Assembly (NCBI GenBank): GCA_903813345.2 | Contig: CAIIXF020000008.1 | Location: forward strand, 1,809,341 to 1,873,340 | Reading direction: 5' to 3' | From: Owenia fusiformis | Taxonomy: Eukaryota > Annelida > Polychaeta > Sabellida > Oweniidae | DNA length: 64,000 nt | The notes under the pieces: model-generated | Databases searched by the model: none | Seen by the model: only the letters and a program-made list of their open reading frames with translations | What the model was told of the DNA's origin: nothing | In this document: in pieces, positions 188-63,719 of the stretch | How positions within the stretch are numbered: the stretch's first letter is position 1 | How the letters are laid out: every line of letters begins with the position of its first letter | Program-made: the position numbers and the translations under genes

Positions 188-389
188 CTCCCAACCATAC
201 TGTGAAATTAGCCTTAGAGGGTGGCTTGTGTAGCTTGAATGATCTAATGGCCAGTTTATCTCTGTAGCGTTGCTGTTCTACCAACTCATGGACCTCTGCT
301 AGCAGTCTATGTTGGAAGCCTGGTAACATTGCAGTCCCACCAACCACTACTATGTTCTCAGCCAGAACCCTCCTGATATCAATGGGGCA
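188..389 (-). CDS. ACTR10: ACTR10 exon (GGTAMLPGF nucleotide-fold block)
   Basis: This 202-nt exon begins [20 protein letters not shown] and continues [20 protein letters not shown]. It ends with [14 protein letters not shown], where the last Gly codon is split by a gtaaga donor. The GGTAMLPGF segment is the actin-family phosphate/nucleotide-fold motif (GGTSMLPGF in vertebrates). The remaining C-terminal coding sequence should lie left of position 1, and nothing in 1-187 resembles it. Confidence 0.95.
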
Positions 390-9300: not shown

Positions 9301-12300
9301 CTGAAAATACACAGATTGCTATTTAATATTATGCATCACTACACACGCAAATTGTATGTAAATGTTCCTGCAAAAAGCTCTTATTTCAAGGATAAATATT
9401 TTTCACTTTTGTTGTATCCTATAGGGACAAATTATGCATAGGGAAGCTTAAATCATCCAACGCTCGTATACATTTAAATATACAGGATACAAATCTAATA
9501 GTGCTATAATATGTAGGAAAGATATGGTAATCTTTACAAAGCCCGTGAGATAATTATACCAAGACAATACTGTTCTCATGTTCGCTATACATTATGGTAA
9601 CATACACATATTGTGAACATGGCATTATAAACTCATTAAAGGACATCATATCTCTTGCTCTACTCACAAAATCAATGTAACATATATACAGGTTATAGTG
9701 GCTATGACCCCCAAAAGGGAGTATTAGGTGCCACATAATGGTATTTACAATGATTTGAAATATTATAAGAAGTGTACATGTAATTGTGTAAAAAAACAAG
9801 TTTTTCAAAACCATAGAATATACTCTGATGAATCCCATAATGTGAGAATGTGAGAGCTGGGAGGTTGGAGATGGGACTATCAAGTCTTTGGGTCATCATA
9901 CTCTCACATTTAGTAAAATGTATCATAGCAATCTACTCAACCATTCCATCATTTTCATTCTGGAGAGGGCTGGAAAATACTTAATGAATAAAAACAATGA
10001 GCACACGCATCTTGAACCTGCAGGCTTGTGATTACAACAGCCACTTGCATCGTTCAAATGCCAGCGCTCAAGCCCTTATGGCCAACTCGACAACCCACAA
10101 AGGGTGTTTTGTTAGTCATTCTTACTAGAGGCAGCAAATGTTAATGCTCAAACACATCCATTAGGCTATTTGAAATTCAAACTTAAACATTCAAGTTAGA
10201 TTCATAGAATCAGAGCTATGCAGGCTAGTGATAATGAATAACTTGTAATATGGATAGAGGAATCGTTTATATTCCTATTAAATAACATTTACTTCGATAA
10301 CAATGGCTGTATTCCATTAATTAAAAAGTATAAACCAATCCGCAGGTGAACTAGTCGTTATATTTATTGTTTATTCCTCATAATTCAGCACTAAATCAGA
10401 TGCTAAATTCATTTATTAGGGATAAAGAGAAAAATACATCTACATATGTAGAACTAAGAAGATGTCTATCAGCAACAGATAATTCTGATGGAACATACTG
10501 ATATACATGTTTGTATATGTGAAACTTGCAAATATCCTCATCAACGAATATACACGTAGCTTTAATATAATTGGTATTATTGCAAAAGATAGGGTCCAGT
10601 AAAGCTACCATATCATTAAAACTGGTCCATCATACTAAACCATCAAAACAAAACAACAACCAAATAAATTTGCATTGGCTATTTATTATTCAAACATGAC
10701 CGTGCTCTATTCGAATTTCTCAACCAATCAGAATGCAGCATAGCCAATATAGAACGTTCTCTAATTCTCTATAGATGCACGACCATGCTCTATTCAATCT
10801 GCAATTTGCATTGTTTTGAGTGATGTCACATCTCATCTGCACATCTGGGGCTCTGTCCGGGGATAGCTGTTCTTTTTTACTCCCTCCGTAACTACTGTAA
10901 CTATTTAACTATGGCTGACTTTAAGTTTATACACCGTATAAAATCTAAAACGGGGAGTAAAAATGAACAGCCCAAACAAATTCTAAAAATTTTCCGGCCG
11001 ATTTCAGAATCTTGACAGCATGCGTATTCTTCCTTCATGCCCGTTTCACAGACACAGCTTTTACTAATTTTTATGTTTGAATCGGAATAAATAATGATAG
11101 GCTTCGGTTCGTGCTCTGTACAACATTCTGTCCAACTCGTGCTGAATTTCACCATATTGAATGGCCTATCATTATTTATTCCTTAACCATATAAGTTCAT
11201 ATATACAAACTCCAAATACACAAAGACCCTTTGGGCAGCACCTCTGAGGCGCCCCTGATCATAATCCTGGCATATAAAGCCATATATCAATGTTCCATTA
11301 TCAACTCTTAAGTAGATATCCCCCAGAGGTAAAACGTTAATATCAAATATTCCTACAAAACTTAACAATAGTTCAATTTTGATCCTCAAAGCTTCAATCT
11401 TGATTCCTCAGAGGTAAAATGTTAATACTAAATATTCTTTATCTACAATTTAGGATACACATACATGTATATATGAGAAATAATATAATGAAAAGATGTC
11501 TAGACTTTTTGGATGCTATATGAATTCATGCACCTTAATGGTAATGAGATAAATTTACATATTATGTTCAAAGACCATATAACATTTTTGCCCCATTCTG
11601 TTTGAAGACCTGCAAACATGGTGTATATTTAAATTGTCCCATGACTAAGAATGGTCTTAACAATGTTTCTCTATTGTTTGTTGATTCTGTTCAGGATGTA
11701 ACTTCATTTGTGATTTATAGGATTTGCTTATTAAATAATAAAAATATTTATTCAATTATGCATGGTATTGGAGGTCCAATGCATTTTAATAAGATCTGTC
11801 TGCATCAAGCAGCTTCCTGTGTGGTATCATTATGCATAATGTGGCATAAAAAATAAAGAGGCAGATGCTGACAGCAAGACAGTATTTTTCATCATTTTTG
11901 AGTTCACTAAATAATTACCTTACATCAACACAAAAGTCAATGTGACTTATCTATACAAAAATCAAATACCTAGAAAAACCGCAACTCCACGGAGTAGGAA
12001 ATCCCTTCGAACAAAACATGTTTTGATAAATAGCGGCCATATAAAATTAGAGCCAAATCCATCCACTGGAATTTGAATTATCAAAGATTATGTTTTTGAT
12101 TATGCCATTTTGAAATTCAGCTGTCATCTTTAGATTTCTACTTTAGCAGAGCTCCTATGTCCCAAGGCATCAGGATATACAATTTATATTAATCCTACTT
12201 GAGTTAAATTTCGATAAATAGCAACCACCTTGAAAATTTCTTCTCAAGCAGAGCTCCTTTATCTCTAGGCATCAGTATATAAAATTTGAAGTAAATTCGT

Positions 12301-24300: not shown

Positions 24301-27300
24301 ATCTTAATACTTATGATTGGTGGGAACCTTGACATAATGAATTAAAAGTGATTCAATCTCAAGCCTCATCTTGATCTAAATAGATGAATATATTTTTGGA
24401 TGAATCCAATCGGATTTGTCAAATACTTTGGGGTCTTCAAGCAATCCTTTGGTCATAAGACCCAATGAATTCACCGAAAAATTTACGGATGGGTAATTTT
24501 AAAAAAACTACACTTTAAAATTATAGGCCCATTTAACAGATCATCCATGATCAATGAAACATCAAATTTGAAATTTATTGACTTCTGTTCGATGGTGGGT
24601 TTGAAGATATATTAGCTTTGAACACAGTTGAAAAACATTTTTCTGATTTTTCGACAATCCACTCTCAAATATGGCCAATTCTCAAATTTTCTTTTGGAAA
24701 CTTATAAATGCTTTGGAAATTCTGTGGCCTTCTTGAATATTTCTTCTTGAGCAGAGGTCCTATGTCTCGATGGTATCAACATTTTTTTTATTACATTTAT
24801 GTATGGATGTTTCAAATATCATTGATAAATTTTGTTTGCAAATGTCCTGTCATGTGGACAATTCAGCAAGATTAAAAGTGTGCTGCTTTGAAATCTTCAC
24901 TAGAAATCTTAGAGTGGGACAAGTGGAATGATTTTGTAGTAGTGGCCTATCTGTTGGGAGATGACTGGATTCAGTGGATCTTCATTGTGGTGTGTTATTA
25001 CAAATAATACTCTCTTGCATAATATAAAGTAGTATAATAAAGTAAGTAATATAAAGCAGATATTGCATGTCCAGCGTGACACAAAAATGCGCTCCTTAGA
25101 AGCATGGACACTGCCATTGTGTCATTTCAATACTTTAAGGTATTTTATTGCAAATGTCACATTTTTGTGTCTTATTAGAATGTGTATCCCCATCCTATAA
25201 ATATACAAGGACAAATGAAGGTAGTGAATGTCCAAAAATTTGTGATTATTTATAAAATGCATAAGTGTGCCATATATCATCTGATGAATACTGAACTTGA
25301 TAAGCGAATCTGTAGTACAAAAGCATGTCTTCAAACGAGGAGATCATTTGTTTGGAGATATTATGAACACCACTGACATGCTTAATGTGTAAATGACTAT
25401 ACATACTTGTACATAGGTGGGTAGGGTATTTACATTTCAATATTCAACTGACCTTTTTATCAACTCCAATGAGGTATATACTTCTACACTGCATTCAAAG
25501 TGAGTACAATTAAAGTCAATGATAGATCATCTGAAGAAATAATGATCCCTCTGGAATGATAAAAGTAATGATTGAAATGGTAATGACTTCAAATGATATT
25601 TTGTCTAATGAGGAAACACAAGGTAGCAATTTCAAAGATCAAGGATTAGATGAGGCTATAAAATGAAATTACTTTTTGATACAGACTAAACAATTAATTA
25701 AGGTTATGTCTGACCATTGTAAAAATGGGCAATGGGACCTGTGGTGGAGTCCTCAGAGAAGAATGGTCCTTTCTCTCTTGGACCATAAATATGCCTCAAA
25801 AGGATATGAGTTGAAAGATGTGGATGTTCTCTGATCACTCTGCCAAAGTTTCACACCGACACAGACTTAGTTATAGTAAATGGTTCTATCTATTGCCATA
25901 ATAGACTTAGCCTGGATGGTTCATTATATACATCAATGAACATGTTATTTACAGCAGGAATGGAACTTTATCCAGTTTTTACTTAGAACGGAGCTGTAGG
26001 ATTGAATCATCATGTCAACAACCTAAATTGAACAAAATATTAACATACTTAGGTGGTTCAAAAAGTTTTGCAGTTGATGCCATAACTTCAAGGAAAATAG
26101 GACTTTTACAATGAAACTTGGTACACATATGTGTTATACATTTATACATTATATGTTAAAATTTTGGACCTCAATTTTGATTGGTTCTTGAGATATGGTT
26201 GCTATGGTAACCAGAATGGTGGGTACCATGTTCAACCCGAAATTACGTTTTTCCAAATAGTTTTCTTGCTTGAAATCTTTTTGTAAAGTGGCAGTTAGCA
26301 GGTGTAAGTGTCTTTTGGAAAAGATAAAAGTTCTTATAGAGCAGGACAGACATATTTCATTAGAGGAAATAAGTCATTTACTGGATATATCTAAGGGGCC
26401 ATACAATTGTCACAAAGATCTTGAAAAAGCGGTATGTTGCAGCAAAGTGGGTTCCAAAGTTCCTCACAGCGGAGCAAAAGGAAGCGCGTCTTGCAGCATC
26501 TAGGCAATTTCTGGATACGTTTTGGCATCATTTCCAAATGCTCCCTGAACCAGTTCATAAGTCTCTTGCAAAGTCTTGCCATTTTGAACCATGCACTGTA
26601 CATCAGATTTCTATGTTTCCATTTCATCAATTTGGTTGGTGTGGAAACATCTACCATTTTCAAAATTTCCTCACTTTTCCATCTCAATTTTACAACTGGG
26701 TTTTGGACAGTATACATCACAAAGGAACTTATCGTATCACTTGTCTATTGTGATGTCATAGAGACAATTAGAAAAATTGAAGAATTTGAAGAAAAATAGC
26801 CACCCGAAGACACTTACACCTGCTAATTGCCATTTTACAAAGAGTTTATTCAAGCAAGAAAACTATTTGGAAAAATGTAATTTCGGGTTGAACATGGTAC
26901 CCACCACTCTGGTTGAAATTTCTTAATCATCAAATATTTCTAAATGCATTTCAAAAAAGATTATCTTTTTAACACCAATGCAAAGATTGAACAAAAGACA
27001 CACTATTTCAATAATAAAATGCCATATTTAATGGGCCACTTCAATGTTTTAGCATATCAAAAATATTTTGAAACATTAGTGATGTCACTAAGGTACCAAA
27101 AACTTTTTGAAAAAAATTGAATTTTTTTTTTCGATGTCAATCTTTTCTAAATATGTTAGACTTCATAAAAAACCAATGTCGATTGTCTAACCAGGTTAAA
27201 AGAAAGAATAAATTATGTTTTAGATATCATTGTACCATTGGTTTCTATGAGAACTAAAATTTTGAAATGCATTTTTCTCAGAACCATTTTCATGCACTGA

Positions 27301-30300
27301 TAAGTTCATTTCTCGCTTATTTATGAACCGATTTTCTTAATATTTTCGGCAAAAAACATGGAAGGATGATAGCTATACATTGGTATGAATTGTGGCTAAT
27401 TAGAAGATATGAGTGACCTCTAAAATTTGGTTTTAAATAAATTCACAAATTTTGGAACAAAAAGTCTATCAAAAAACACTTTTTGAAATTTAAAAAAAAA
27501 GTTTCACATATCAGACTTTGATAACATTGGGTAAGACTACAATATAAGCCAAAGTGGTTTAAACTTTATATGGGGCCTTTAAGTAAATACACTTGTAGTT
27601 GTTTTTACATGATATTTTCCCAAAAGCATAAACAAATTAAGACTATGCAAAGATAAAATCATCATAATATTATCGGGCAGTGAACATTTAGGAGTAAAAT
27701 GAAAAATGTAATTACTTAAAGAGATAATCTGTCACCTTGGGGTTAAAATTTAAACCAAGGAAATTTTCTCTGCATAAAAAATAGATTTATTGATTTCTTC
27801 CAAAATAAGTAAGATTTGTCGCAAATTCCACAGTAAGTTTGATTGTATAGAACCCAATTGGCACAATTAAGTCAGTCTTTTATGAGCTACCAAAATGTTC
27901 AGACAAATTGAAAATTCGATCAGCTGATGCTACCATACAATTAACAAAAGAAACAGGCACATTGTATCTGGCAGTAGTTGACAAAAATACAAAAGAAATC
28001 TTGATTGTGTTCCTAATAAAACAATGTCTCTCTCAAACCATTTATACAATGATAGATATACACATGTCATGACTTGTCTCTATTGCCAACAAAAAAGTAA
28101 TATATTGCAACTTTTAAATACCAGCTTACATCACTTTCTACAAATCTGATCAATACATTGGTGTTTGGCCTTGGATGTAATCATTTCAAACTGGACGGGC
28201 GTCCTGTAAGATACAATAATGAATGATTTAATCTAGGGATAAGTTTATAGGACAATACAAGGGGTTTTATTGGCACATTTTCTGGAGCATTAAGATTTGC
28301 TATTACAGAATAAATGCCAATCGGGACATCAATGTTGTACTTGGATTGAATTTAGTATCATCTGACAAAAACCATGATGACTTGACATTAATTTTTATCA
28401 TGACAAAGTAAAGTGCACCTAAAAAGCCTCCATTATCTTAAACTATTGACCACAAAGATAATAGCATATAAATCATGGATATGGTGTGGAGAATTTGCTA
28501 ATTTTTTAACAGATTTAAGGGCATTCAAGAAGTATGCAGCTTGTATTACAATAATCTTGGATTTACAATGTGAAAACTAGCACATATTTCAGAGATAAAG
28601 CTAAAAGCAAATCCCTATAAAATTTGAAATAAAATACCTGAGGTATATATGATTCTATCAAATCATTTGTAAGTGATGTTATGAGATTTGTTTTTTTAAA
28701 TAATTTAGATGATAAAATAATCTGATTTAACACTCCTGAAGGCATACGTCTGTAACTATAATTCTGAATTTTGATTGGCTGACTCTGAGTAAGGCTGAGT
28801 AAGGATTATATCAATTCAAATTTTCCTATTTAAAGAGTTCATGAAGCAAAACCAACCAATTGAGAAGAGTAGTAAAATGTCTAAGATAATAGCTTTTAAT
28901 CCTGACAGCGTTAAAACCCCAGAGACACACTCATGTCAATGCTGTTATTTAAAGCAGATATTTAGTGTACTACTTTCTGCACTTTCCCTTACATTCAACC
29001 TGATGTGTCAGTAAATTCTATTACACATACAAAATGATTTAGCTGATTCAAAACATGCTTCAGAACAATATAAAGAGATTCCTGGAAGTTAAAATCAGAC
29101 ATCCACTTCAAAAATGTCTGGATAAATATTTTTTAGTGCAGATTTATTATTGTTAAGTTGTTCTGAATTGCAGAGGTCTGGTTTATTTCAACTGTTTAAT
29201 TTTTGTTGATTGATAAAGTGTTGCCCTTGAAACTCAATTATCTTATTTACAACAATTGTTACATCATTATACAATATGTCTCCGATTACTAATTTATTGA
29301 TATGGTTCACCCTGAGTACTATAAACAGTTGGATAGGTTTTTATAAGTCAGATAACTTTGTTAATTCATGGATACTGATTCTTTTATTTTCCAATTTCTA
29401 CTTTTCTGTTTTTCTTTTTTTAGAATTTCTAAATACGATCATATTTTTATATCGTTATTCAATTGACGTTTCACTTTACAATACATATATAACTTATAAT
29501 TAAGGATTTAAGCCCTGGACTTGGTGCAATGTGCAATGGTCATTCCTTGAAAGTGTTGCTTACCAAAATTTGCATGAGATTGGCTGAAATTCGACACACC
29601 TGGCCTAGCTTTTTGTGAATTTTCATTCATGTAGTTAATATATACATGTAAATGGTATACATGGTTCATACTGTAGTAACTTCTAACAGTACAATCCAAA
29701 TCCTATACCTTTTGAGACTTGCTCTTTTTCACCAGTGGTTCTCCGGATTGATAAACTTCAACATATTTCCTCTATTCGGGGTGTTTTGTACTTTTGAAAT
29801 TTGATATTACATGTAAAACATGTTTTATTTGTTTCCTGATGTTGCCTGTCACATATACTTCATCATTAGGGTAAATAATTTATGGAATTTCTATTATTAT
29901 GGTGAAACATGATCTATTAAAAGTGTTTCATTGTTTTTGCTTATATTATATTGTTTATATTTATGGAATATAATGTTAATCCTAATTTCTAACTTTTCCA
30001 TGTTTTACTGGATAGACAGGCAGATAAGTGGGGACTACTTTAGCTCCCTTCTGAATACTGACAATACTGACATTTAATATATATATATATAGGAGACATT
30101 TCCATTAGAGACACTTCCGTCACAATATAGACTAGTCTCGTCACTTACATGAACATCGTCAAAGAAACAGATCCTCAAATTATCTACTTTTAAAGAATGA
30201 TGAAAAACATTATCGTAACAAACAACAAATGTTGAACAAAAACAATAAAAATCACGATATCTAACTGTGCAACACAACATGAAATTATTTTATCAATCAA

Positions 30301-48300: not shown

Positions 48301-49474
48301 CATAGAGCTATAAGGAAAATGACTGAATGAAGTGGCAGATTAATTCCCAGAAATTAACAATCACCCTGTATGATCAGAAAACAATACTGAATCCTCAAAT
48401 ATATACTGAATTCTAAATTATTTGAATATGAACTGGTAAACCCATAAATCTGTCAATGCAAAACTGCACATCTATCATATTATATGTGAGCTTAGATGGA
48501 CTTCCTGAAAATTTTATGTACAAGGCAAAATAATTATCCTGTTGAAATATAATGATGGCTATACATTAGAAAAACTTTGTCCTGAGTCTTGTTAGGATGT
48601 TGTTAATGGTCAGAACACGTTATTTATTTCAGTCATATTTCTAGACAAAAGCCTAGAATATTACCAATGTTACTTTGACTTGGACTTATGTCAATGCTAC
48701 AAAAGGGAGGGACTAAATGTAGGATTTCCTAACATGTACATTCTTAAACTGAACTATAGTCTCTAAACTTGAGCCACATTATAACCTGCAGCTTGTGTTA
48801 TAAGTAGGTTTAAATTAAGAAAACCAAAAAATCTTATCAAACTCAAATCAAGGCACTTCCTCCAATTTGTTACTTTGACATTACGTCAAAGTGTGAATTA
48901 CAATGAGAAAAATAAAATAACCACAATACATTTTATTAAGCTCTTTAAAATTCTTGCCAGAACTGATTAATCTTGGGCCATTCTCTTGAGATATTTACTG
49001 ACAAAATTTAAAGCATATCCTTTTGAAGTATAAACTTAAGTTACTAAATGAAAGGTTTTGGAATGAAATCAATGACATAGAACAGCTTAAATTATGAGCC
49101 CTTATACCCATAAAGCTTCATCTTATTTTTCCTTTGTATTACAATTCTATCACATGAATGGCAATATGAGGCCCACTTTAGGTAATACCTTCTTCATCTA
49201 TATTCTTCCGGTATATGTTCAGTTCAATATCCTGTAGAACCATTCTATTTGACAACTAACATGGCATGTCTGGTATAAAGCACCAAAAGGCAAACAATTC
49301 CATTAACCAAAGGAAATGAACAAAATATATTTTGCAAATCAAGTTCAACAGACAATGTTGTCCATATGGAATTCGTAAAAATGTTAGATATACAGATTTA
49401 TGAAATCAGGCTGAAGCCAAAATGAGTAATAGTTATATACTTTGTTTGAACTCTTAAACAAACCACAAATCAGC

Positions 49475-49536
<62 letters not shown>

Positions 49537-52500
49537 CTCTCTCAACAAAGTAGCATAATCATACCACATGAAGGTATGATATATCTAAGTTTCAAATAAA
49601 GGTCAATGAACTAGGTATTCTCAATGATTAGGATGAGCAACAACTGTGTTTGTTTTGGTATCCTGTACATTGTTTACCACAATGAATCCACAAACCTACA
49701 TGAAGGTATGCTATAAATTTGGTGAGTGTGTGGAGTTAAATGAAACAAATGTGAACTGTAGACAAACCATTTAACATTTAGATGATGGAGCATTGAAAGT
49801 GAATTGAATGAGGAGGCTTTTGCACATACATGAATTAATTAAGAGATGTTATCATCGTGGTTGTTTGGTTATGATTCAAGAATCTTTTGTTGGTTCTGGT
49901 TTTATTAATTGATATGGTACACTAGAGGTTTTGTTCTTTAAATACAGTATTGACTTTTGCGCAATCTCATCGTATTTCTAGTAAAAACAAGTGAAGAGAA
50001 AAACATCATTCATTCCATTCTTTGAAGTAAACACGACTCAACAGAGACAAATGTGTGGTCACAATACTCTTTTCAGAGAGAAAATACAATGTACAAGCCA
50101 ATACCTGACAATTTCCATGAATATTCCCAGAAGTAGCCTAGGATCATGAGTCTTGATGTATAATTTCTTGATAAATGGCCAAAAGGATGATTTGCTTTGA
50201 CATTCATGGCCCCCTATTGAAAAAATTGCAGATGTGCTCCTGTTTAGCATGATCTTAAAATAATAGCTATGCTAAATATATCTCATCTTTGGATGTACAT
50301 TAGGTTTGATGTTGGCTTGATATTCCTAAACATGTCTCTTCGATCACCAGTACATCGGTGAAAATCTTTTTGGACATTTCCAATAAGTCATGCTGCAAAA
50401 AGGATTATTTGGTTTAAATGAAACCAACACCTCTTTGCTCACAAGTCACTGCAAAACAGGAGGTAATTTCCAATGCCAACTATCAAAGGTTCTGTTCAGA
50501 AGTCACAAAAAAGAAAACTTCTCATGATTATGATAATACATTTGGAAATATAGATTTAAATGTAAGTGAAAAACAAAACAAAAATATAGTGATTTTGAGA
50601 AATGCAACAACTGGGACTGCATTCACATGCAGCTTAACCTCTTGACTACCTGGAGTGACGAGATTTATCGTCACCTCAGAAATGACCTTGACATCCAGAG
50701 TGACAAGAACATTTTTCACTAAAATTGCTCTTATTTGAACAATTTTCATTCAGATTACACAAAAATTGTTTTAAAATGTGTAGAAATGTTCTCTGCCGTC
50801 TAAAGTTACTAAGTTGAGCTTCCATAGTTGTATAGGTATAGTAAAATGTCAAATGGTGGCAAAAATGAAAAATTCTCTGGTTTCAACCGATTTTAGAGCC
50901 TGGGATTCAAGAGGTTAATTAAAATACAATGAATATCACGATCACCTTAAAAATGATTTATGTCTGTGAACATGATATTTATCTTGTCAAAATCAACAAT
51001 GTACGGGTAATTCATTACGCAACATGGCAGCTAAACCAACATAATCAAAAAGTAAGACTATACTGAAAAATACATAATTGGTAGTCTACATGTATTAATA
51101 TACCAAGGGGTTGACTGTTACAATTACACCCTGACACTGTCAAGGAAAACAGTAACATTGCAGTTGAGGGATATCATTTTCATTGTAAATCAAATTGGAG
51201 GGATCTGTAAGTGTTTTCTTAGCCAGAAGAAAAACTGTGAGATACAAAATGTTAATTTATTATTTGACAATGACATTGGGTCAAATTTAATATTCATATT
51301 CAATGAATAAACACAAGGAGCTCTCAGCTCAATTATCTCAATATATTCTAGACCTGTGCGCCCTGATTTTCTTTTATTATCTAACATTCTGGTTTTCCAA
51401 GAAAAACATCAACATTCTTTTTGTACCAAACATTAAATCCTGTAAACAACTCGAAAGCTAAAATGAGGTTGTGTCAGTAGTAAAATTGAGACACTTCCTG
51501 ATGTTGCGTGTAGATCTCTTTGTTACGAATTTCCAGGAAATATCCTTTTAGATCCATCTGAATCTATAGTTGTAAGAGTTGTACTAATGAGGGGTCTTCG
51601 GGGAAATCTAATGAATGTCCTTGTTAAGCCTTGTGTTGCTTGGACATAAAAAATGCACAAACTAAATAGAAATAGCTTAAATCAATATCACCTAAGCTTT
51701 CTTTAAAATATTATACTGGTCTCTAATATACACTAGACTGATTTATAAATATGTATATTATTTTAATAATATTCAATTGAAGTTTGTTGCTTAGTGAATT
51801 AGACAATATCGATAATGAAGAAAATCTAATTCAAAACTTTCATATTGTTGCATGTTTCTATTTCATGATGTTGTATCATTTTCAGTTAATTTTCACCCAA
51901 TTTTCCTAATTTCTTACTTTGATGTTTCCAGAAAATAGAAGACCCATTTCTAATGGCAGTAAAGGAAGTCCTAGGTGACAGATACAGTATCAACATTGAT
52001 TTGGTCTACAAAAAGACAATTCACTTTATCACTGAAACTCTGTCAACTTCATTTGATAGGGAAGCAGCCCGTATCAAAGCAGAAGCTTTGGAAAATGACA
52101 ACATAAATGAAAATGATATTGACAAAGATGTTGATACAGTTGCACTGATAGAAACATCAGACAGCCAAATTATAGATTCCAACAAGGCGAATAATATAGA
52201 TGATATAACCACAAAGATTGAAGATGTGGCATGAATACTTTTCAAGTTTTATCAAAAACTTGGCAGATTGTTCAATTTAATTGTTAGACACTGCTGCGAC
52301 TTCCAAAGTGTTAAGTGCAGAGGGCATTTTTGGTATAGCTCACCTCCCATAAAAGAACACTGGAACAGTATTCTGGAAACATTAATTACACATGTGTTTT
52401 ACATATGAACCTGATTTGGATAGGAAACTGCATGAAGGATTACACACATTAAGGTAAAAATGTAAGAATGAGAAAAAAACATGCCACAGGTAATATGTCA

Positions 52501-55500
52501 GTATTATCTGGGAGATAAGTCAGTCAATGTGAAATGATATATTCATTGAAGCAGAAAAATGGAAGATAAAGATAAAACTACAATGAGATTCTTGCAGCTT
52601 TCCAATAATCTCTGCATAATATACATACAGGTCAGCTAATATAAGAATGCAACTTGTGCCACTTATGGCGATGTGGATGTAACAGCACTAGAATGATTCC
52701 AAAAGGTGTCAATAAAGCAAAGAATAAAATATACTATAAACATACTGTAGAGCCAATGTAGTTATTTTACACAGAAGTATTAACAAAGAACTGCTCAGAG
52801 TGAGAGTGAAGAGAAAAAATTGATGAACCAGACCATGATGGTTGTGGAAGAATGAATTAAATACATGTAGTGAGACTTATAAACCATAAAGAACTGGAGA
52901 GACAAATTCATAATGACCATAAAGGAATTCATATAACAGGAGGATAAACTGTGTATATAATGGTGACAAAAAAAACTGTAAGGAATATGGTTCATTGAAC
53001 CATGAAAGAATCAAACAGATCAGAACATAATGGCACCAAAGATGTGCAATAAAAAAGGATAGAAAACAGATTGCACAGACTTCGAATCTCTAGAGCTAGA
53101 GGATTCATATTGAACAATGTATATATAGTGAGCATATATAGAACAGATAGGGAGCCAATGAGGTAACCCAGTATTAAAGACAATTACAGAACAATGTAGA
53201 AGCAGTAAGCATAATACAAAACAGATAAAATGTAGACAATGTAATTCTCCAATTTTGGTATTAAATAAAATACTACTGGTATATATAATTGTAAAAGTTG
53301 TTCCACGATTAGATGGTTACATATTTTGTTTCAATCTACAATTAAGCTTAGACAAAAATATTAGATGGAAAACCATTACTGTATAAATCAAAATTAATTT
53401 TTTTAAGAATTTCGACTTTCTCAGCAATTAGCTTTATCATGGTGTATTGATAATTCTTAAACTCTGCCTAGTGATATTAACAATAATGATGTAGTCATTT
53501 AGAATATGTACATTTAACTTTATCATGTAAATAAATATGTTTTACAATTCTCGGACTGATCACACAGCATCTAGAATTTCCTCTGTGTAAGCTCATGCCC
53601 TTTCATAAATTCTTTTTAAGTTGGACTCTATTTCAAAACTAGAGAACAGCTGGTCAGAATGGCATTATGTGAACCAGTTGCAATGTTATTTTGCTACCAA
53701 TCAACTGCTTCTATGAAAAGTAACCAGTCAATGACCAGCAGACTGGCCCTGTTTACATGAGTAAATTGCCTAAGATGGAACTTTGTATATAATACTGTAC
53801 TGAAACGGTAAAAGCATAAGAAGTAAATAGAGAGAAAGCAGAACTGAATTTGATATTCTACTGTAAACAAGAAACATATAAATAGCAATTCTATATATAA
53901 CTTCTATAAAAACATCAACACCTGAATGGGATCATGGTGTTTGGTTATGTTGCTGCATTGGATTACTTAATCTTATTCAAATTATTCAAAGTATTAAGCA
54001 ATACATTTTATGAATATAAAACATGGATAAATCTCTGACATATTGCTATAGAAACAAATGATGTGGTTTTGGCATCACTCACAGGGCTTTTACCAGGAAA
54101 TATTTAGGGTGTGGTGCTAACATCTTTAGAATAACTGTTCAGTCATGATAAATCATATTTATGTTATGTTTTATCCTTTTTACATGCTATTATTGTATAT
54201 TCAGTCATGGAAACAGTCATGATTTGCCAATAGGGTGTGGAGGGAGCTAAATAGAGTGTGGTGCTGCGCCACAGTCTAAAAGCCTGGCAAGAGCCCTGAC
54301 TCATGATATGTAATGAAGGCAATTATCTTCAGGCCACCAATGAGTTGATGAGGAGAACGCAATTAATACTGACATAAAATCAAAAAATTCCTCCTCAACT
54401 CATCTTTGGGCCTGACATTGTTCATAGAAAGACAAATATAGTGACAGTATTGTATCGAACCATAGCCACATACTTTGCATTCAATTTATACACATATGTA
54501 AACATATATCCATCATATGTATTAATCTTTGTACTTTGTGTTTAACATGTATCCGGTTTCCATTTATAATTAATCACAATGTAATTATTAATGCCAACCA
54601 AATGTGCAGAATAATAAAAAATAGTTGTTAGTTGTTTTATTTAGTACAACTCGATCATTTATGATAATATTTCACTTTGACCTGCTTTTCTTATTATGTA
54701 AATTATAAGTTATGCATAAATCATCTCAAAAGTATAATAAAACTACAAAGACTCATAAAAATGTTTATACAATGTTAATAATACAACCATAAAAAGACAA
54801 AGGCAATTTATTGAACAATTTCTTCTAATTTATCTCATTCAACTTAACTACTGTACTCTAACCATGATGACTTGACAATTGCAACTGCAGGAGCTCTTGT
54901 CCAAAATGGCTGATGACGTAACATTCATATACATGTATTGACTGGTTCTCACAAAATGCCTTCTATGAGAAATTAAAGTTTATGAGAAATTAAAACATAG
55001 CAAACAATTTATCTTTTATTTATAAAACTTTGAACACCTATATTTAATTCCAATTAAAATTGTGATTTATAGTGAAATACTCAAAATGTAATGCTACAAA
55101 CTACAAGCTGGGATTGATGTTGTCCCTTAAATAACATCACAACAGCCACCATACACACTGTTGCCAAATGTACAGAACCTGTGGCAATTTTAATGATATT
55201 GTGGACTTTTTTCTGACTATACTAAAACACCCCTTATTAAATATCTTGAAAGACCCCTTACTACCAATGCCCAAAGATCCCTTTGATATTTTAAATAATT
55301 TTGCTTCACATGATGTCGTGAATATATTGTGAAAACACTTGATAACACTTTCTGCAGCAGTCTTTGTATATCATGGTGTGCGTTTCAATAAAGAATAGAA
55401 TGGATGATATTATATTATCATACAATACATTGATCCGATTAATTTGACATATATATATTTATATAACCCACCGTAAATTTTTTTTAATTTCCCAGAAATA

Positions 55501-61500: not shown

Positions 61501-63719
61501 CATATACAACAGTGATAAAAGCTAGCTTCAGAAATAGTTATTGGCAAAATAAGTAACGTCATCCTCTAGTTGGATGTGTTAATTCGAGGCTCTGATGCAA
61601 ATTTATTGTTATTTGATTCTGGATAATCATAGAGGATAATCTCTATTTATTCCAAAGTACTAAAATATAAGGTTATTTTGACCTGTTAAAAGTCCTGAGA
61701 ATTATATCAATCACGACTTCACCATCCTACAGCACAATAGCAAATCTATTTATTTAAGTAATATCATGAGCTTTCAAGAGAAAGCCCTGGGTCATATTTG
61801 TCTTCAACTGTATACAATTTGAAGACATCTCAAATTAACTTCTGATTCCTGCCTGATTTATCTTCACAGCTAGCTACACAAGGACTGCCATCTTTAAAAT
61901 TCAACAATATTTATTTTGAAGAAAATATAGGATCACAAGTCAGGACTTGATTTAACAGCAAAACTAGGCATCTGGAAGAACTAAACTCTCTCTGGAGATA
62001 CATGTGTACTCCATCGCTCTAAATGTATAAAAATGAGACTTTTATTCCATTTGTTTTTTAAGGTTTATAAGTCACTGAGAAACAATCAGTCAATTATATC
62101 TTAAATTCAAAATATATTCATGCAACAACTGGTCAAAAACATTAAATCTAAAACAAAAATATGTATTATGACCAAAATGATAATAAACTGGTGATAAGAA
62201 ATGAATGTGAGACCATAGACTTGACTGTAAGTCTGAGGTGAGACACAATCTACTCCCTGGCATCTAGCCTCTCCCCTCCACCTGATATCTGTTTGAGATT
62301 ATGGAGAGAGGGGGAAGGTGTGACACAAGACTACTTCCAATAACATGGTCTTATATAATGTCATTTTCAGACAAAATAACATACATAAAGCCATGCTATA
62401 TATACATCAAACTTAGGATTCTTTGTTGCAAAATTCCAAAAAATCTTTAGAATGAATATCAAAAGATTCTTTTAGATATCAAAATGTACATTTAGAGTAA
62501 TAATAAAAATACATTAAGATAAAAAGTAACCAAAATATAACAATTCATCAAATAAAATAAAATACTCTCATCTTCACTCCAGTGTACAATGTACAATATA
62601 AAAGGTTTTGTCAGACAACTCCTATGTTATACTACATAAATTATGTATTGTATCATCTAACTTACCCAGTGCGGAAGATAGAGGGCGCTTCTCTGATTCA
62701 TCAGTGGTAATGATTCCAGTCTCTAGCAACTGTGACTCTAAGCGACTGAAAGAATGAATGGGATCACTGTACGTATATTCATTTCATAGGAATGTGCTTC
62801 ATAGGTGTGGTTGCGTGCATTTGGGAACATTCATTTTGCTGTCCTAACTGATAAGATTTAATTTTTGGACATCCAATTAGATTCATTTTTCATTAGTTGA
62901 GTTAAAATCAAATTTTCAATACTTATTTATTTATTGAATTACAGTAAGAAGTGTTGTATAAGTGGAACATCTTTGTTGAATTTTATGACAAATCAGGTTG
63001 TAAGTGACCACTCCATGCAATCTATTAGTTTGTAAATCTGAAAAGCTCCAGTTTTATATTACAAAAAGAATTTTCAGAATCGGAGGATTACAGAACTTTT
63101 CTATAGGGGAGTAACAAACAATTATGGAGTATTCAATGACGATTCCTTACCTGTGAATGGCATTGCCTGCTAAAGGAACGGCCTGCCATGCCTTTAGTAT
63201 TGGGATACTTTCATAGATCTGAATAGTGTTAAAGACAACTGTTGATTCTGTATATCCCTCACATAAGAAAGAGAATTGGAAAGTGAGTGATACAATATGT
63301 ACCTTTCAATGTACCAGTATTTAAAATAGTTATATGACCTAAATTGCAACAAATTTTATCTCTGAGTGTGGCAAGTGAATGGACAAATGAATTCGTCCAT
63401 TCACTTTGAACCTCTCTGGATACTTTTTCTATCGTAAAATATGTCTAAAAATAAAGGTACAATAGTGATGTTTTAAATACATGTATGTCTAAAAATAAAG
63501 GTTTAATATTGATGTTTTAAATGGAAAGTGATTTCGTGAGATTACACAAGTGCATCAAGTATTAATGGGATCCCTAACTAACACCCCAAGATGCATAACA
63601 GTAAAGGATACAGGTAACACAAGTGTTTCAGTGAGTCCAGCATCAAGGACAAGACCAGATGAGATTCCTAAGGTGAACAGGGCCATGAGATGTGATGGGG
63701 CAAACAAAACTGATGGCAC
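188..63719 (-). CDS. ACTR10: Actin-related protein 10 (Arp11, dynactin subunit), partial gene, 8 internal exons
   Basis: ACTR10/Arp11 is the divergent actin-related protein that caps the pointed end of the dynactin Arp1 filament and so acts in dynein-based transport in the cytoplasm. Eight minus-strand exons (63612-63719, 63151-63218, 62666-62745, 9265-9300, 8548-8642, 7583-7656, 2055-2136, 188-389) give 745 nt, about 248 codons. They line up in order with roughly residues 117-350 of the 417-residue vertebrate protein. Recognisable blocks include [56 protein letters not shown] and GGTAMLPGF...WLGG. Every junction is GT-AG and all phases join in frame with no stop. The first ~115 residues lie beyond 64000 and the C-terminal ~65 residues lie left of position 188. 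Introns are 393, 405, 53365, 622, 891, 5446 and 1665 bp. The giant one holds a complete globin gene on the opposite strand. Identity was judged from remembered family sequence, not from a search. Confidence 0.95.
390..2054 (-). other. ACTR10 intron with one G/C-rich repeat
   Basis: Intron of 1665 bp. Apart from the G/C-run and poly-T insertion at 1846-1956 I see no gene or structured element. Confidence 0.8.
1846..1956. repeat. G/C homopolymer inverted repeat with poly-T tract
   Basis: A run of seven G (1846-1852) is followed by gtgtgaccacacc and runs of six C (from 1872), so the segment can fold on itself. After it come A- and T-rich tracts to 1956. Read on the minus strand it looks like a poly-A-linked G-rich element, possibly a retroposed repeat end. 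Low-complexity sequence only. Confidence 0.5.
2055..2136 (-). CDS. ACTR10: ACTR10 exon ([10 protein letters not shown] block)
   Basis: This 82-nt exon completes an Arg codon and encodes [20 protein letters not shown] then ILDAILE, ending on a codon boundary. The vertebrate counterpart is [27 protein letters not shown]. The acceptor is tttcag and the donor gtaaga. The longer open frame on either side is chance read-through into intron. Confidence 0.95.
2560..3120 (+). pseudogene. Decayed transposase fragment (helix-turn-helix region)
   Basis: Read across frames on the plus strand, 2570-2720 gives pieces such as [18 protein letters not shown] and ANGQPKTV. They resemble the N-terminal DNA-binding part of IS630/Tc1-mariner-type transposases (pattern FPxKxWSRxxxxxLIKK...GSGRPRT). 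Stops and frameshifts break it at many points. Sequence to about 3120 may be further remnant, but I recognise no catalytic motif. It lies in the 5.4-kb ACTR10 intron. Confidence 0.4.
5777..5902. repeat. Short direct duplication (~37 bp, offset 87)
   Basis: acaaagtatttagtccctta... at 5777 recurs with a few substitutions at 5864, both followed by gcagtggtac. This is a simple local duplication within an ACTR10 intron. Confidence 0.6.
6440..7240. repeat. Modular tandem array 1 (~130-145 bp monomers with AAAATGGCCGCC core)
   Basis: About four to five diverged monomers carry a short palindrome of the form gccgccatttttcaaaatggc (near 6545, 6681, 6812 and 6957). Each is followed by accaaatatgaacaaaatc and then ccactacttttcgagttat. 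The array closes at 7164-7235 with a GGACAGATGGATGG-like stretch, atatcccccc and gaacttcgtcc. It has the same plan as the arrays at 12.0-13.4, 22.9, 57.4 and 59.2 kb. Open frames inside it are not genes. Confidence 0.75.
7583..7656 (-). CDS. ACTR10: ACTR10 exon ([11 protein letters not shown] block)
   Basis: This 74-nt exon encodes [20 protein letters not shown] then DGKI and two bases of Arg. It aligns with vertebrate [24 protein letters not shown], one of the most conserved ACTR10 stretches. The acceptor is tccag and the donor gtaaaa. The following intron is 5446 bp. Confidence 0.95.
8548..8642 (-). CDS. ACTR10: ACTR10 exon ([14 protein letters not shown] block)
   Basis: This 95-nt exon has acceptor ttctag and donor gtcagt. 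It encodes (V)[15 protein letters not shown] followed by a Gln/Glu-rich stretch ending EVDPTK, and ends on a codon boundary. Vertebrates have ARTCFVSDLKRGLKIQ at this place. The segment between CFV and the PPP motif is about five residues longer here than in human, consistent with a surface loop. Confidence 0.92.
9265..9300 (-). CDS. ACTR10: ACTR10 36-nt microexon (LEDIK block)
   Basis: A 36-nt exon lies between ttttcag and gtaatc. With one base from the upstream exon and giving one base to the next, it reads [13 protein letters not shown]. This fits the vertebrate GSVPEGVLEDIKAR. Both flanking phases (1 and 1) agree with the neighbouring exons at 62666-62745 and 8548-8642. This microexon closes the 53,365-bp intron. 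Confidence 0.9.
9980..10242 (-). mobile_element. SINE-like dispersed repeat, copy A (tRNA-related segment on minus strand)
   Basis: This ~260-bp unit is bounded on both sides by atgaataa. It shares with 14988-15247 a tRNA-like segment (on the minus strand, an A-box-like part near 10070-10090 and a B-box-like ggttcaaga near 10012-10020). It also shares a body containing gttttgtta, actagagg and taatgctcaaacaca. Two diverged copies of equal length indicate a mobile family. The tRNA-like part sits at the minus-strand 3' end, which is unusual for a SINE head, so the class is uncertain. Confidence 0.5.
10861..11182. repeat. Cluster of inverted repeats, possible MITE
   Basis: Two imperfect arms (about 10861-10888 and 10951-10974, sharing gctgttc...ttttactccc) flank a short open frame. 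A second, perfect 19-bp inverted repeat (ggaataaataatgataggc at 11084-11102 and its complement at 11164-11182) follows. Just upstream, cgaccatgctctattc-like motifs occur twice (near 10695 and 10787). The layout suggests nested non-autonomous elements of unknown family. Confidence 0.45.
11998..13390. repeat. Modular tandem array 2 (~140-150 bp monomers)
   Basis: About eight diverged monomers each contain a TGGC(A/G)GCCATTTTGAAATTCAGCT core, then cttctcgagcagagctcct, ctctaggcatcagtatataa, and aaatttgaaccaaatcca followed by ggtatttgagttatcaa. It ends at 13310-13381 with a GGACGGATGGACGAACGG stretch and a hairpin-forming TATCTCCCTCGAA...TTCGGTTGGATA, then AAAAA. The longest open frame (12716-13015) is made of repeat monomers and is not a gene. 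Confidence 0.8.
13391..14284. other. Intron stretch without recognised features
   Basis: AT-rich sequence with short chance open frames. I see no repeat unit, RNA gene or coding similarity. It lies just upstream of the CpG-bearing candidate promoter. Confidence 0.6.
14285..14474 (+). promoter_or_regulatory. Candidate plus-strand promoter with non-coding first exon, probably for the nested globin
   Basis: This CpG-containing island stands out in AT-rich intron. It has a GC box ccccgcccc (14285-14293), two TGACCT half-sites six bases apart (14306-14311, 14318-14323), a CCAAT-type attggt (14383-14388), a full palindromic CRE tgacgtca (14407-14414) and a TATATA at 14428-14433. About 41 bases past the TATA box, GCG|gtgagt (donor at 14475) could end a short first exon with no ATG. 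The next plus-strand coding unit is the globin, whose upstream acceptor is at 37831, implying a first intron of 23,357 bp. The link to the globin is inference. Confidence 0.6.
14931..14949. repeat. (TA)n microsatellite
   Basis: Uninterrupted TA dinucleotides of about nine units. A second short TA run occurs at 30077-30092. Confidence 0.9.
14988..15310 (-). mobile_element. SINE-like dispersed repeat, copy B plus start of a tandem second copy
   Basis: This copy has the same organisation as the copy at 9980-10242. On the minus strand it shows tggtctagagcatg (A-box-like) and ggtcgtgagtttaagac (B-box-like), a classical tRNA-derived spacing. The body again has gttgtttcgtcag, actagaggg and taatgctcaaacaca. 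At 15247 the atgaataa boundary recurs and the opening (ctcaaactcacaacctcatg) starts again before the similarity is lost near 15310. Confidence 0.55.
15311..19584. other. Intron stretch without recognised genes
   Basis: About 4.3 kb of AT-rich sequence with a G9 run near 16221. A solitary copy of ctatcccacattatttgagac at 17532-17552 matches the arm of the hairpin at 30554. No coding exon, RNA gene or tandem array was found. Confidence 0.6.
19585..19816. mobile_element. Solo end of a mariner-type element
   Basis: Starts after a TA with CTTAGGTGGGTCAAAAAGTT, close to the mariner terminal pattern TTAGGTnGGTnnAAAAGT. It is nearly identical for ~230 bp to the left end of the element at 26048. Similarity stops after ttttcttga near 19816, and no opposite end was found, so this is a truncated copy. 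Confidence 0.6.
19817..21806. other. Intron stretch without recognised features
   Basis: About 2 kb of AT-rich sequence between the mariner end and the 48-bp minisatellite. No gene, RNA or repeat family is recognised here. Confidence 0.6.
21807..22800. repeat. 48-bp minisatellite, about 20 copies
   Basis: Monomer of the form accatttccaaagaacagta followed by ttaagttgaacatcgtggta and gatcacat, repeated head to tail about 20 times at strict 48-bp spacing. One copy near 22695 has a single-base insertion, and the edge near 22780 is degenerate. Because 48 is a multiple of three, long open frames appear on both strands, a 16-residue repeat in each. The bases vary mostly at the C/T of catcgtgg and the G/C of aaagaac/aaacaac. 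No start, splice or upstream signal suggests a real protein. Confidence 0.92.
22830..23025. repeat. Modular array 3 terminal fragment with hairpin
   Basis: This is a single partial monomer (gctccactacttttcgagta, then caccaatggtattttagtta) matching monomer parts of arrays 1 and 2. After it come aaggatggatggacagagac and a clean stem-loop at 22992-23018 (TATCCC... CAAAC-ttc-GTTTG ...GGGATA) followed by AA. It looks like the 3' end of the same element type, cut short. Confidence 0.65.
23417..23566. repeat. 33-bp tandem repeat, ~4.5 copies (66-bp dimer structure)
   Basis: Units ttgaatttctccatcttatt-type start at 23417, 23449, 23482, 23515 and 23548. Alternate units share gggg or agatg endings, so the true repeat is a 66-bp dimer. 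The reverse-strand frame across it is repeat-derived. Confidence 0.8.
26048..26914 (+). mobile_element. Degenerate mariner-type transposon with long internal inverted repeats
   Basis: Begins after a TA with CTTAGGTGGTTCAAAAAGTT, a mariner-like terminus. The segment 26209-26314 is repeated in inverted orientation at 26806-26914 (shared ggtgggtaccatgttcaacc, ccaaatagttttcttg and ttagcaggtgtaagtgtctt). Between them is a broken transposase. The outer part of the right end is missing after ctctggtt, so the element is truncated and internally deleted. Confidence 0.7.
26270..26560 (+). pseudogene. Frameshifted mariner transposase N-terminus
   Basis: One frame gives [20 protein letters not shown], the first helix-turn-helix of mariner transposases (family pattern: VESDRRLTxxEIAxxLGIS). 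After a frame break near 26400, the next frame gives [20 protein letters not shown] then [13 protein letters not shown], matching the family's RKVxARWVPrlLTxEQK stretch. No DDD catalytic part follows. The fragment lies within the mariner-type element and is non-functional. Confidence 0.7.
26915..30553. other. Intron stretch without recognised features
   Basis: About 3.6 kb of AT-rich sequence with only short chance open frames and a small TA run at 30077-30092. Confidence 0.55.
30554..30609. repeat. Perfect 23-bp hairpin with 10-base loop
   Basis: Arm ttcagtctcaaatgatgtgg plus gat (30554-30576) is followed by loop agattcgtcc and an exact complement (30587-30609). The left arm and the start of the loop recur as a 27-base identity at 33299-33325. 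The right arm recurs with small changes at 17532-17552, so the hairpin arm belongs to a dispersed repeat. Confidence 0.85.
31605..31680. repeat. 38-bp direct duplication
   Basis: gtaaaaagcgtccattactt followed by attgatcaccc occurs at 31605 and again at 31643 with minor changes. Confidence 0.7.
31785..32110. repeat. 68-bp tandem repeat, 5 copies
   Basis: Units begin cactgtactgtaaacata at 31785, 31853, 31921, 31989 and 32057 and contain tggtatatacacgtggtaga and taatgaaagatctaattta. Copies are nearly identical, suggesting recent expansion. The last copy is cut after gacatgtgg. Confidence 0.92.
32111..37831. other. Intron stretch without recognised genes
   Basis: About 5.7 kb of AT-rich sequence. 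It holds only a dispersed repeat arm at 33299-33325 and AT palindromes (for example near 34935). It would form the end of the globin's 5'UTR intron if the 14.3-kb promoter is correct. Confidence 0.55.
37832..37912 (+). other. Probable globin 5'UTR with a four-codon upstream ORF
   Basis: A strong polypyrimidine acceptor ending at 37831 (tctattttcag) precedes the globin start by 81 bases. This suggests the coding exon begins with spliced 5'UTR. The stretch contains one ATG, at 37863, which opens MSTA and stops at 37877, 35 bases before the main start. Confidence 0.55.
37913..38121 (+). CDS. Globin coding exon 1 (N-terminal lipidation signal, helices A-B)
   Basis: 209 nt encode residues 1-69 plus two bases of Arg70. 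Two in-frame starts lie six bases apart, at 37913 (MGMGCS) and 37919 (MGCSVS). Both put Gly at position 2 and Ser at position 6. The second has the better start context (G at -3 and G at +4) and the more usual globin X form with Cys3. Residues 10-40 are a low-complexity polar extension. Helix A begins at [15 protein letters not shown]. The exon ends CTT AG|gtaca, the B12.2 intron. A good acceptor (tattttcag) lies at 37831, so the exon probably includes 5'UTR from 37832. Confidence 0.93.
37913..52234 (+). CDS. Globin X / neuroglobin-like hexacoordinate-type globin, complete, 3 coding exons
   Basis: This is a complete 253-residue heme globin from exons 37913-38121, 44678-44927 and 51932-52234. 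The fold spans about residues 41-195: A12 Trp53, B10 Phe68, CD1 Phe82, distal E7 His104 and proximal F8 His136. These spacings match neuroglobin without gaps (E7-F8 32, A12-E7 51). Introns fall at B12.2 and G7.0, the ancestral globin positions. The N-terminus MGMGC/MGCSVS fits the myristoylation-palmitoylation signal typical of membrane-bound globin X, so attachment to the inner face of the plasma membrane is likely. Residues ~196-253 form an acidic Asp/Asn/Ile-rich tail with no domain I recognise. Globin X proteins are linked to redox or nitrite chemistry rather than bulk oxygen transport; that role is inferred here. The gene lies wholly inside an ACTR10 intron, on the opposite strand. Globin identity is nearly certain; the globin X assignment is probable. 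Confidence 0.95.
39659..39792. repeat. Foldback element (arms ~60 bp) with GC-rich tip
   Basis: The left arm 39659-39718 (caaatatttcactctatt, ggtgaatacctgtac, tttcacaagtgatattccac) is repeated inverted at 39731-39792. The tip gaagcccgaagggcga is itself a small palindrome. The structure is typical of a MITE or foldback transposon. It lies in the first intron within the globin coding region. Confidence 0.75.
39795..40085. mobile_element. MITE with 21-bp terminal inverted repeats
   Basis: ttattatatcactgtctagct at 39795-39815 is matched by its complement at 40065-40085 with one mismatch. The 291-bp unit contains cgtgggatatcgctagatat and tatcgccagatatcccacg, an inner inverted pair. It directly abuts the foldback at 39659-39792. 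No coding capacity; the superfamily is unknown. Confidence 0.65.
40087..40298. mobile_element. Possible second MITE or part of a composite element
   Basis: tcactatattgcccgcagaa... gacgt at the left and gacgtcacatattgctcagg ... atatagtaaaatga at the right are roughly inverted copies. Inside is a tandem pair of cggtcgttaaatgcattct-like motifs (near 40207 and 40230). Similarity of the ends is imperfect. Confidence 0.35.
40299..44677. other. Globin intron stretch without recognised features
   Basis: The rest of the 6,556-bp B12.2 intron. AT-rich; open frames at 43.2-43.8 kb on both strands have no recognisable similarity and overlap each other. Confidence 0.55.
44678..44927 (+). CDS. Globin coding exon 2 (helices C-G, both heme histidines)
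   Basis: This 250-nt exon follows a ttttcag acceptor, completes Arg70 and runs to Gln153, ending CAG|gtgtgt. It holds [16 protein letters not shown] (CD1 Phe82), LENHAFMVM (distal His104) and [11 protein letters not shown] (proximal His136). The central position and phases (2 in, 0 out) are those of the canonical middle globin exon. Confidence 0.95.
47625..47870. mobile_element. Imperfect long inverted repeat (candidate MITE)
   Basis: Left side aattgatcatttaaatacat followed by acagtgctcatt (47687-47718) pairs with aatgagcgctgcatttataa and atgatcaaatt (47792-47822). Weaker pairing continues outward through aaaatgtggcgaaa/ttttcccatgct-type sequence to about 47625 and 47870. It is located in the globin G7.0 intron. 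Confidence 0.45.
49477..49543. repeat. (CT)n/(GA)n microsatellite
   Basis: 67 bp of CT dinucleotides with one CG interruption near 49533. The reverse-strand Glu-Arg open frame across it is an artefact of the repeat. Confidence 0.97.
50634..50918. mobile_element. piggyBac-like MITE (TTAA ends)
   Basis: The 285-bp unit starts TTAACCTCTTGACTACCTGG and ends with the near-complement CCTGGGATTCAAGAGGTTAA. The first 12 bases pair perfectly, and TTAA occupies both ends as in piggyBac target duplications. It contains gagtgacgag-type sequence and no open frame. It lies in the globin G7.0 intron. Confidence 0.65.
51932..52234 (+). CDS. Globin coding exon 3 (helices G-H and acidic C-terminal tail)
   Basis: This 303-nt exon follows a tttccag acceptor and starts [19 protein letters not shown], continuing with [17 protein letters not shown] for helices G-H. 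From about residue 196 it becomes a non-globin tail of roughly 58 residues rich in Asp, Asn, Glu and Ile. The tail ends IEDVA and a TGA at 52232-52234. Neuroglobin ends shortly after helix H, so the tail is an extension. Confidence 0.95.
   Translation, partial: KIEDPFLMAVKEVLGDRYSINIDLVYKKTIHFITETLSTSFDREAARIKAEALENDNINENDIDKDVDTVALIETSDSQIIDSNKANNIDDITTKIEDVA
52711..52728 (+). terminator. Candidate polyadenylation signals of the globin gene
   Basis: Two AATAAA hexamers (52711-52716 and 52723-52728) lie about 480 bases after the globin stop codon. They would give a 3'UTR of about 0.5 kb. In DNA this AT-rich such hexamers occur by chance, so the assignment rests on position. Confidence 0.4.
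52735..56080. other. Intron stretch without recognised features
   Basis: About 3.3 kb downstream of the globin 3' end. AT-rich, with scattered AATAAA-like hexamers. No gene or array seen. Confidence 0.5.
56240..56510. repeat. Degenerate ~160-bp tandem repeat, about two copies
   Basis: gaactttcagac (near 56244 and 56402) and agagttattccatatttggg (near 56318 and 56478) recur at about 158-160 bp. A further related gagttatcccatttaac lies near 56875. Strongly diverged. Confidence 0.5.
57364..57720. repeat. Modular tandem array 4 (two 150-bp monomers, terminal hairpin)
   Basis: Monomers carry aaatccaaaatggcc(a/g)cc, acatttacccagaatg (57393 and 57543, period 150) and aatttcaaatgaatccatc-like segments. 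The array ends at 57692-57714 with TATAGCACCC-AA-GGGTGTGATA, a stem-loop, followed by AAAA. An open frame from 57531 is built from the repeat and is not taken as a gene. Confidence 0.65.
59215..60140. repeat. Modular tandem array 5 (145/147-bp monomers in 292-bp dimers)
   Basis: caagatggccgcccaaaagt begins monomers at 59221, 59366, 59513, 59658, 59805 and (variant) 59950. Spacing alternates 145 and 147, so the real unit is a 292-bp dimer. The two dimers are nearly identical. Monomers contain gtaaatttgaaggaaatccg and a gcgatgacaagatttttc motif. The array passes into a (CACGAC)n stretch (60070-60100) and a hairpin TATCCCACC-gat-GGTGTGATA at 60114-60134, then AAAA. Confidence 0.9.
60141..62665. 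other. Intron stretch without recognised features
   Basis: About 2.5 kb of AT-rich sequence up to the ACTR10 exon at 62666. No gene, RNA or repeat family is recognised. Confidence 0.5.
62666..62745 (-). CDS. ACTR10: ACTR10 exon (RLESQLLE block)
   Basis: This 80-nt exon completes the Ser codon and encodes [20 protein letters not shown] followed by PLSSALG. It ends after one base of a Gly codon. Vertebrate ACTR10 has KELETQLLEQCTVDTSVAKE here, so the first half is conserved and the second half is variable. The acceptor is ttcag and the donor gtaagt. The next exon in frame is 53 kb away at 9265-9300. Confidence 0.93.
63151..63218 (-). CDS. ACTR10: ACTR10 exon (IYESIP block)
   Basis: This 68-nt exon starts in phase 0 with [11 protein letters not shown] and continues [11 protein letters not shown], ending with two bases of a Ser codon. 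It matches the vertebrate [22 protein letters not shown] stretch. The acceptor attcag and donor gtaagg are canonical. The intron to the previous exon is 393 bp. Confidence 0.93.
63373..63525. repeat. Short palindrome and 44-bp direct duplication in an ACTR10 intron
   Basis: aagtgaatggac (63373-63384) pairs with gtccattcactt (63394-63405). Just after, atgtctaaaaataaaggt followed by gatgttttaaat occurs at 63441 and again at 63485. These crowd the 393-bp intron between two ACTR10 exons. Confidence 0.7.
63612..63719 (-). CDS. ACTR10: ACTR10 exon ([14 protein letters not shown] block)
   Basis: This is the most upstream ACTR10 exon in the window: 108 nt, exactly 36 codons, phase 0 at both ends. 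It encodes [18 protein letters not shown] followed by a segment ending [14 protein letters not shown]. That corresponds to the actin-fold strand and turn that read [18 protein letters not shown] in vertebrate ACTR10. The acceptor is ttctag just above 63719. The donor is gtatcc just below 63612, a weaker GT donor. The preceding exon is not visible in 63720-64000. Confidence 0.93.

Follow-up and report, generated by a model that had tools for sequence, protein, structure and literature searches.

Nesting of one gene within an intron of another, on the opposite strand, is common in animals. In C. elegans, 567 opposite-strand intron-nested pairs have been described, corresponding to 5% of protein-coding genes (PMC12274878), and about 63% of nested human genes lie on the opposite strand (PMC3192792). 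The consequences described for such nesting are varied: the nested gene ceh-10 induces its opposite-strand host polq-1 (PMC12274878), and for some nested human genes, mostly same-strand or noncoding ones, a link has been described with exonization within the host and with its early polyadenylation (PMC3192792). Antisense transcription of LUC7L silences HBA2 in a form of alpha-thalassaemia (PMC13309782). The globin X-like genes of arthropods and deuterostomes share a layout with two introns, at B12.2 and G7.0; arthropod globin X typically carries an additional E10.2 intron, which has been lost in some (PMC7457136).

Here, we describe an annelid locus in which a globin gene, predicted to be of the acylated X-like type, is located within the 53-kb intron 7 of the single-copy gene ACTR10. 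The reading that best explains the locus is an ordinary opposite-strand intron-nested pair, to which we assign a probability of about 0.82. Like the C. elegans pairs, of which ceh-10 in polq-1 is an example, it consists of a complete protein-coding gene in one host intron, but the host and nested genes are others and the intron measures 53 kb (PMC12274878). With LUC7L/HBA2 it shares a globin gene crossed by opposite-strand transcription, which is predicted in the present case; the human arrangement was made by a deletion, involves methylation of a CpG island promoter, and contains no nested gene (PMC13309782). The alpha-globin enhancer in an intron of NPRL3 also places globin locus DNA within a widely expressed gene, although in that case the enhancer alone is inside and the globin gene is outside (PMC5504709). 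In the annelid Platynereis, a globin exon likewise lies in an intron of another gene, but Egb-B1 and Egb-B2 are both globins and overlap only partially, by one small exon (PMC7771090).

All coordinates given here are positions in the window, the whole 64,000-nt stretch that was analyzed, and the ACTR10 model was built from the window together with flanks of 9.8 and 10.0 kb (19.8 kb). ACTR10 corresponds to dynactin Arp11 and, as is generally known for dynactin, is a housekeeping gene. The model is on the minus strand and comprises 13 exons and 410 codons, with all introns GT-AG, over a span of ~75.6 kb from the start of exon 1 at 70894 to the end of exon 13 at -4729 in window numbering. Exons 5 (63612..63719), 6 (63151..63218), 7 (62666..62745, 80 nt), 8 (9265..9300, 36 nt, in phase 1 at either end), 9 (8548..8642), 10 (7583..7656), 11 (2055..2136), and 12 (188..389), all on the minus strand, lie in the window, and exons 1–4 and 13 are found in the flanks; the placement of exons 7 and 8 draws on protein alignment in addition to the gene model. 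The best PDB matches of the protein are Arp11 or actin-related protein 10 chains (30dr_J, E 7.4e-155, 518.7 bits, residues 1–394), and the best ordinary actin among the PDB sequences scores far below, at 110.8 bits. A whole-genome search with the ACTR10 protein returned 15 matches, 12 of which are exons of the locus at C8:1.804-1.880 Mb and three of which are actin relatives with 29–30% identity; no second copy of ACTR10 was found by this search. With a length of 36 nt, exon 8 could not surface by itself in such a search, in which the other 12 exons did; it is defined by splice sites and frame and by identity to Arp11 at 7 of 12 residues. Judged by these matches, ACTR10 is a conserved single-copy gene.

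Two other features of the host locus are worth recording. Intron 5 (63611 to 63219, minus strand), which follows exon 5 with the U12-like donor GTATCCTTT and carries TCTTTAAC near its 3' end, looks U12-type by the consensus for that class; the genome contains two matches to U6atac and two to U12 snRNA. A TEX55-like gene at 71220-73833 (Pfam PF17819, 35.4 bits, for a translation without one residue) is arranged head to head with ACTR10, the start codons being 326 bp apart, which suggests a shared promoter region for the two genes.

Intron 7 of ACTR10 (9301..62665, minus strand) is 53,365 bp long with GT-AG ends; the donor is GTAAGT at exon 7 and GTAATC at exon 8, and the acceptors are AG. The earlier note had proposed that the exons at 62666-62745 and 9265-9300 join in frame and in protein order and that everything between them is one intron. 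Both proposals hold: the join is in phase 1 within the 410-aa translation, all 13 exons are in order in a GT-AG gene model, and there is no N in the window or in the surrounding 122.5 kb. The alignment of ACTR10 with Arp11 has gaps elsewhere but none at the exon 7/8 join, so that no ACTR10 exon is missing from the 53 kb, and none was found there with the gene model and this alignment. Skipping of exon 8 would not shift the frame, the phases at its two ends being equal, and the long intron would remain. The other eleven introns measure 386–5446 bp; the extreme length noticed earlier is thus borne out, and the ratio, put at 10–130 in that note, is corrected to 9.8–138.

The globin coding region spans 37919-52234 on the plus strand, wholly inside intron 7 (9301-62665) and opposite in direction to ACTR10. 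Exon 1 (37919..38121) encodes an MGC N-terminus and ends at B12.2 in phase 2 with the donor GTACAG. Exon 2 (44678..44912) extends to the conserved G7.0 border with a GC donor (GCAGGT), and an alternative GT donor would move its end to 44927. Exon 3 (51932..52234) contains the stop codon, downstream of which two AATAAA poly(A) signals (52711 and 52723) occupy 52711..52728, all on the plus strand. The predicted protein has 246 or 251 amino acids, depending on whether exon 2 ends at 44912 or 44927, and passes the Pfam globin cut-off of 22 bits in both forms (39 bits for the GC form and 35.8 bits for the GT form). Its best PDB match is 5ziq, recorded under the name 'Globin protein', which we take to be a tardigrade globin. 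An alignment to neuroglobin shows that the helix A Trp, the Phe at CD1, and both His residues, distal and proximal, are retained, and the N-terminus MGCSVSA reads as the doubly acylated type, with a site for myristoylation and palmitoylation. In globin helix numbering, the introns are at B12.2 (phase 2) and G7.0 (phase 0), and there is no central E10.2 intron. A complete opposite-strand globin gene had been recognized here beforehand, and the start, three exons, stop, poly(A) signals, and Pfam match agree with this; the label globin X-like given to it is consistent with an MGC start and with introns at B12.2 and G7.0 in the absence of an E10.2 intron. The nested globin is a complete and probably working gene of the membrane type. 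It has in common with the GbXL/globin X genes described in PMC7457136 and PMC7771090 an acylation-type N-terminus and both intron positions, B12.2 and G7.0, and it differs from them in having an exon 2 donor that is GC or moved by 15 nt and in sitting within another gene. Because both ancestral introns are kept, a retroposed origin is rejected, and the gene arose by DNA duplication or rearrangement.

CpG content was compared along and around the host. The observed/expected (o/e) ratio is 0.35 in intron 7, 0.31 in the ACTR10 coding sequence, and, for the rest of the gene with its exons, 0.36 in one stretch and 0.50 in another; three 3-kb pieces inside ACTR10 reach 0.60–0.62. For exons 1, 2, and 3 of the nested globin it is 0.38, 1.21, and 0.22. 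The ratio rises near the ACTR10 start (0.81, 0.55, and 0.85 in the 1-kb pieces between 68 and 71 kb) and stands at 0.71–0.74 some way 3' of the gene in a 122.5-kb scan, which also contains low pieces outside ACTR10 (0.13, 0.20, and 0.27). All four C8 stretches with related globins have values of 0.80–0.85; two further globin loci give 0.86 (L029 on C1) and 0.38 (L030 on C5), and four pieces of 0.7–0.8 kb with other globin exons give 1.12, 0.63, 0.25, and 0.81. Four chaperonin genes lie at 0.32–0.59, and ten arbitrary 6-kb stretches at 0.35–0.78, two of the ten at 0.40 or below. The CpG depletion is a weak sign of host germline transcription and methylation covering the globin, as the arbitrary stretches overlap these values.

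As an ordinary nested pair, the locus would work as follows. The globin would have its own promoter and would probably be expressed in fewer cells than ACTR10, while the ACTR10 polymerase would read through the globin as part of an antisense intron that is spliced out. Transcription of ACTR10 in the germline, together with gene-body methylation, may have left the CpG depletion.

An alternative that we regard as unlikely gives the nesting a function, such that ACTR10 transcription would restrain the globin, or the globin promoter would cut or boost ACTR10 in globin-expressing cells. The extension of the CpG depletion over the globin is compatible with this, and precedents exist in the induction of polq-1 by ceh-10 (PMC12274878), the antisense silencing of HBA2 by LUC7L (PMC13309782), and the host exonization and early polyadenylation at human nested genes, which are mostly same-strand or noncoding (PMC3192792). 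Slightly more doubtful is a broader version in which host transcription is part of globin control: germline and housekeeping transcription of ACTR10 would keep the globin in a methylated gene body, the globin could be active solely where its own promoter prevails over the host, there shortening or raising ACTR10, and the nesting would be old and kept in annelids.

Further evidence on an ordinary nested pair with a working globin comes from its relatives. Related globin exons are found on C8, the chromosome that carries ACTR10, at 3.32, 33.33, 33.34, and 33.37 Mb. First exons only were found at 33.33 and 33.34 Mb and exons 2 and 3 only at 33.37 Mb; the four stretches may therefore be fewer than four genes. 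An MGC start occurs in three of the four, which are all those in which a first exon was found, and the exon 2/3 border is identical to that of the nested globin in both relatives where it is visible. The 3.32-Mb globin (L003), which has one extra intron in its N-terminal part, shares 71 identical amino acids with the nested globin over 146 shared codons. Codon differences between the two number 58/43/88 by position over these codons; LWL85 gives dN 0.44 and dS 1.28, and NG86 gave no dS. This is the pattern of coding sequence under constraint since the split from the 3.32-Mb relative and is no proof of constraint on the nested branch by itself. One globin exon on C1 and one on C6 have their best match among giant extracellular hemoglobins, which are known from annelids and make it very likely that the genome is an annelid one.

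The exon 2 donor at G7.0 is GT in both relatives checked (L003 at C8:3.32 Mb and L006 at 33.37 Mb) and GC in the nested globin, where an alternative GT donor lies 15 nt, or 5 codons, beyond the GC site (44900-44936), both being in frame. With the GC donor the intron falls exactly at G7.0, whereas use of the GT donor would put it 5 codons further on. The GC form removes a five-residue alignment gap at the G7.0 border and outscores the GT form in Pfam, as given above, and against PDB 5ziq (87.6 vs 80.5). This donor change is evidence against the preferred reading, as it could mean decay. That the globin is decaying, with no useful protein made any more and the host gene alone mattering, is nevertheless quite improbable: set against the loss of the conserved GT and the depleted CpG of exons 1 and 3 are an intact three-exon structure from start to stop, the poly(A) signals, the alternative donor that keeps the frame, the retention of the key His residues, and codon differences skewed to third positions, counted since the split from the relative and not on the nested branch alone.

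ACTR10 intron 7 is long for this genome. Among 57 adjacent exon pairs of conserved genes, the median gap is 306 bp, the 90th percentile 1761 bp, and the maximum 7080 bp, in a sample that favours conserved genes, uses gaps between matches in place of introns, and leaves out gaps >150 kb. It is drawn from all 60 chaperonin rows and from 80 of the 92 myosin rows (65 of 210 myosin candidates scored), the 12 dropped rows being tandem look-alike exons at C9:37.986-37.994 Mb. Where profile positions are missing between exons, gaps reach 33,545 bp, and long introns may therefore exist elsewhere in the genome. The C9 array itself (C9:37986009-37994334) consists of twelve tandem exon-like matches to one stretch of the myosin head (profile about 18–84), an arrangement like that of a myosin heavy chain gene with mutually exclusive exons.

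Intron 7 contains 67 open frames of at least 72 codons. Apart from the spliced globin, four intron frames were compared with Pfam, without a match; as just four were covered, additional genes may exist there. Rfam at gathering scores gave no match in the 64-kb window, and no recursive-splice sites were found in the intron by two patterns on both strands. A high-copy repeat of ~670 bp (26912..27583) has at least 38 matches at 96–99% identity, from a search with 9301-29000 as the query in which 39 of 14,522 first-look candidates were scored. Overlapping open frames at 26261-26800 resemble, by eye, a decayed mariner-type transposase; the two frames compared with Pfam had no match there, and 26045-26914 has at least one other copy, with 93% identity, on C10. 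Tandem arrays occupy 21821-22774 (48-bp unit, about 20 copies) and 59217-60056 (145-bp unit, about 6 copies).

An assembly error, by which 53 kb with the globin were wrongly put between ACTR10 exons 7 and 8, is hardly credible: no other intron of ACTR10 is as long as intron 7, and none of the 57 adjacent gaps sampled comes near it (maximum 7080 bp), but the N check over 122.5 kb and the exon order gave no sign of misassembly, the locus lies in one 39-Mb contig with all 13 ACTR10 exons in order, and the CpG level of the intron resembles that of the rest of ACTR10.

No globin nested in ACTR10 came up among the papers listed by searches of an open-licence library, and the literature yielded nothing of use on a cytoglobin/PRCD overlap. 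The earlier suggestion that the arrangement is exceptional is weakly supported, given how common opposite-strand intron nesting is, so that the ACTR10/globin pair represents a new, well-supported case of a known kind. It adds no new mechanism; to the study of annelid globin evolution it contributes a globin X-like gene with a known location. The pair lends itself, as a clean natural example, to the question of how a gene manages within the transcribed body of a housekeeping gene, and the related globins found elsewhere on the chromosome, outside ACTR10, are available as internal controls.
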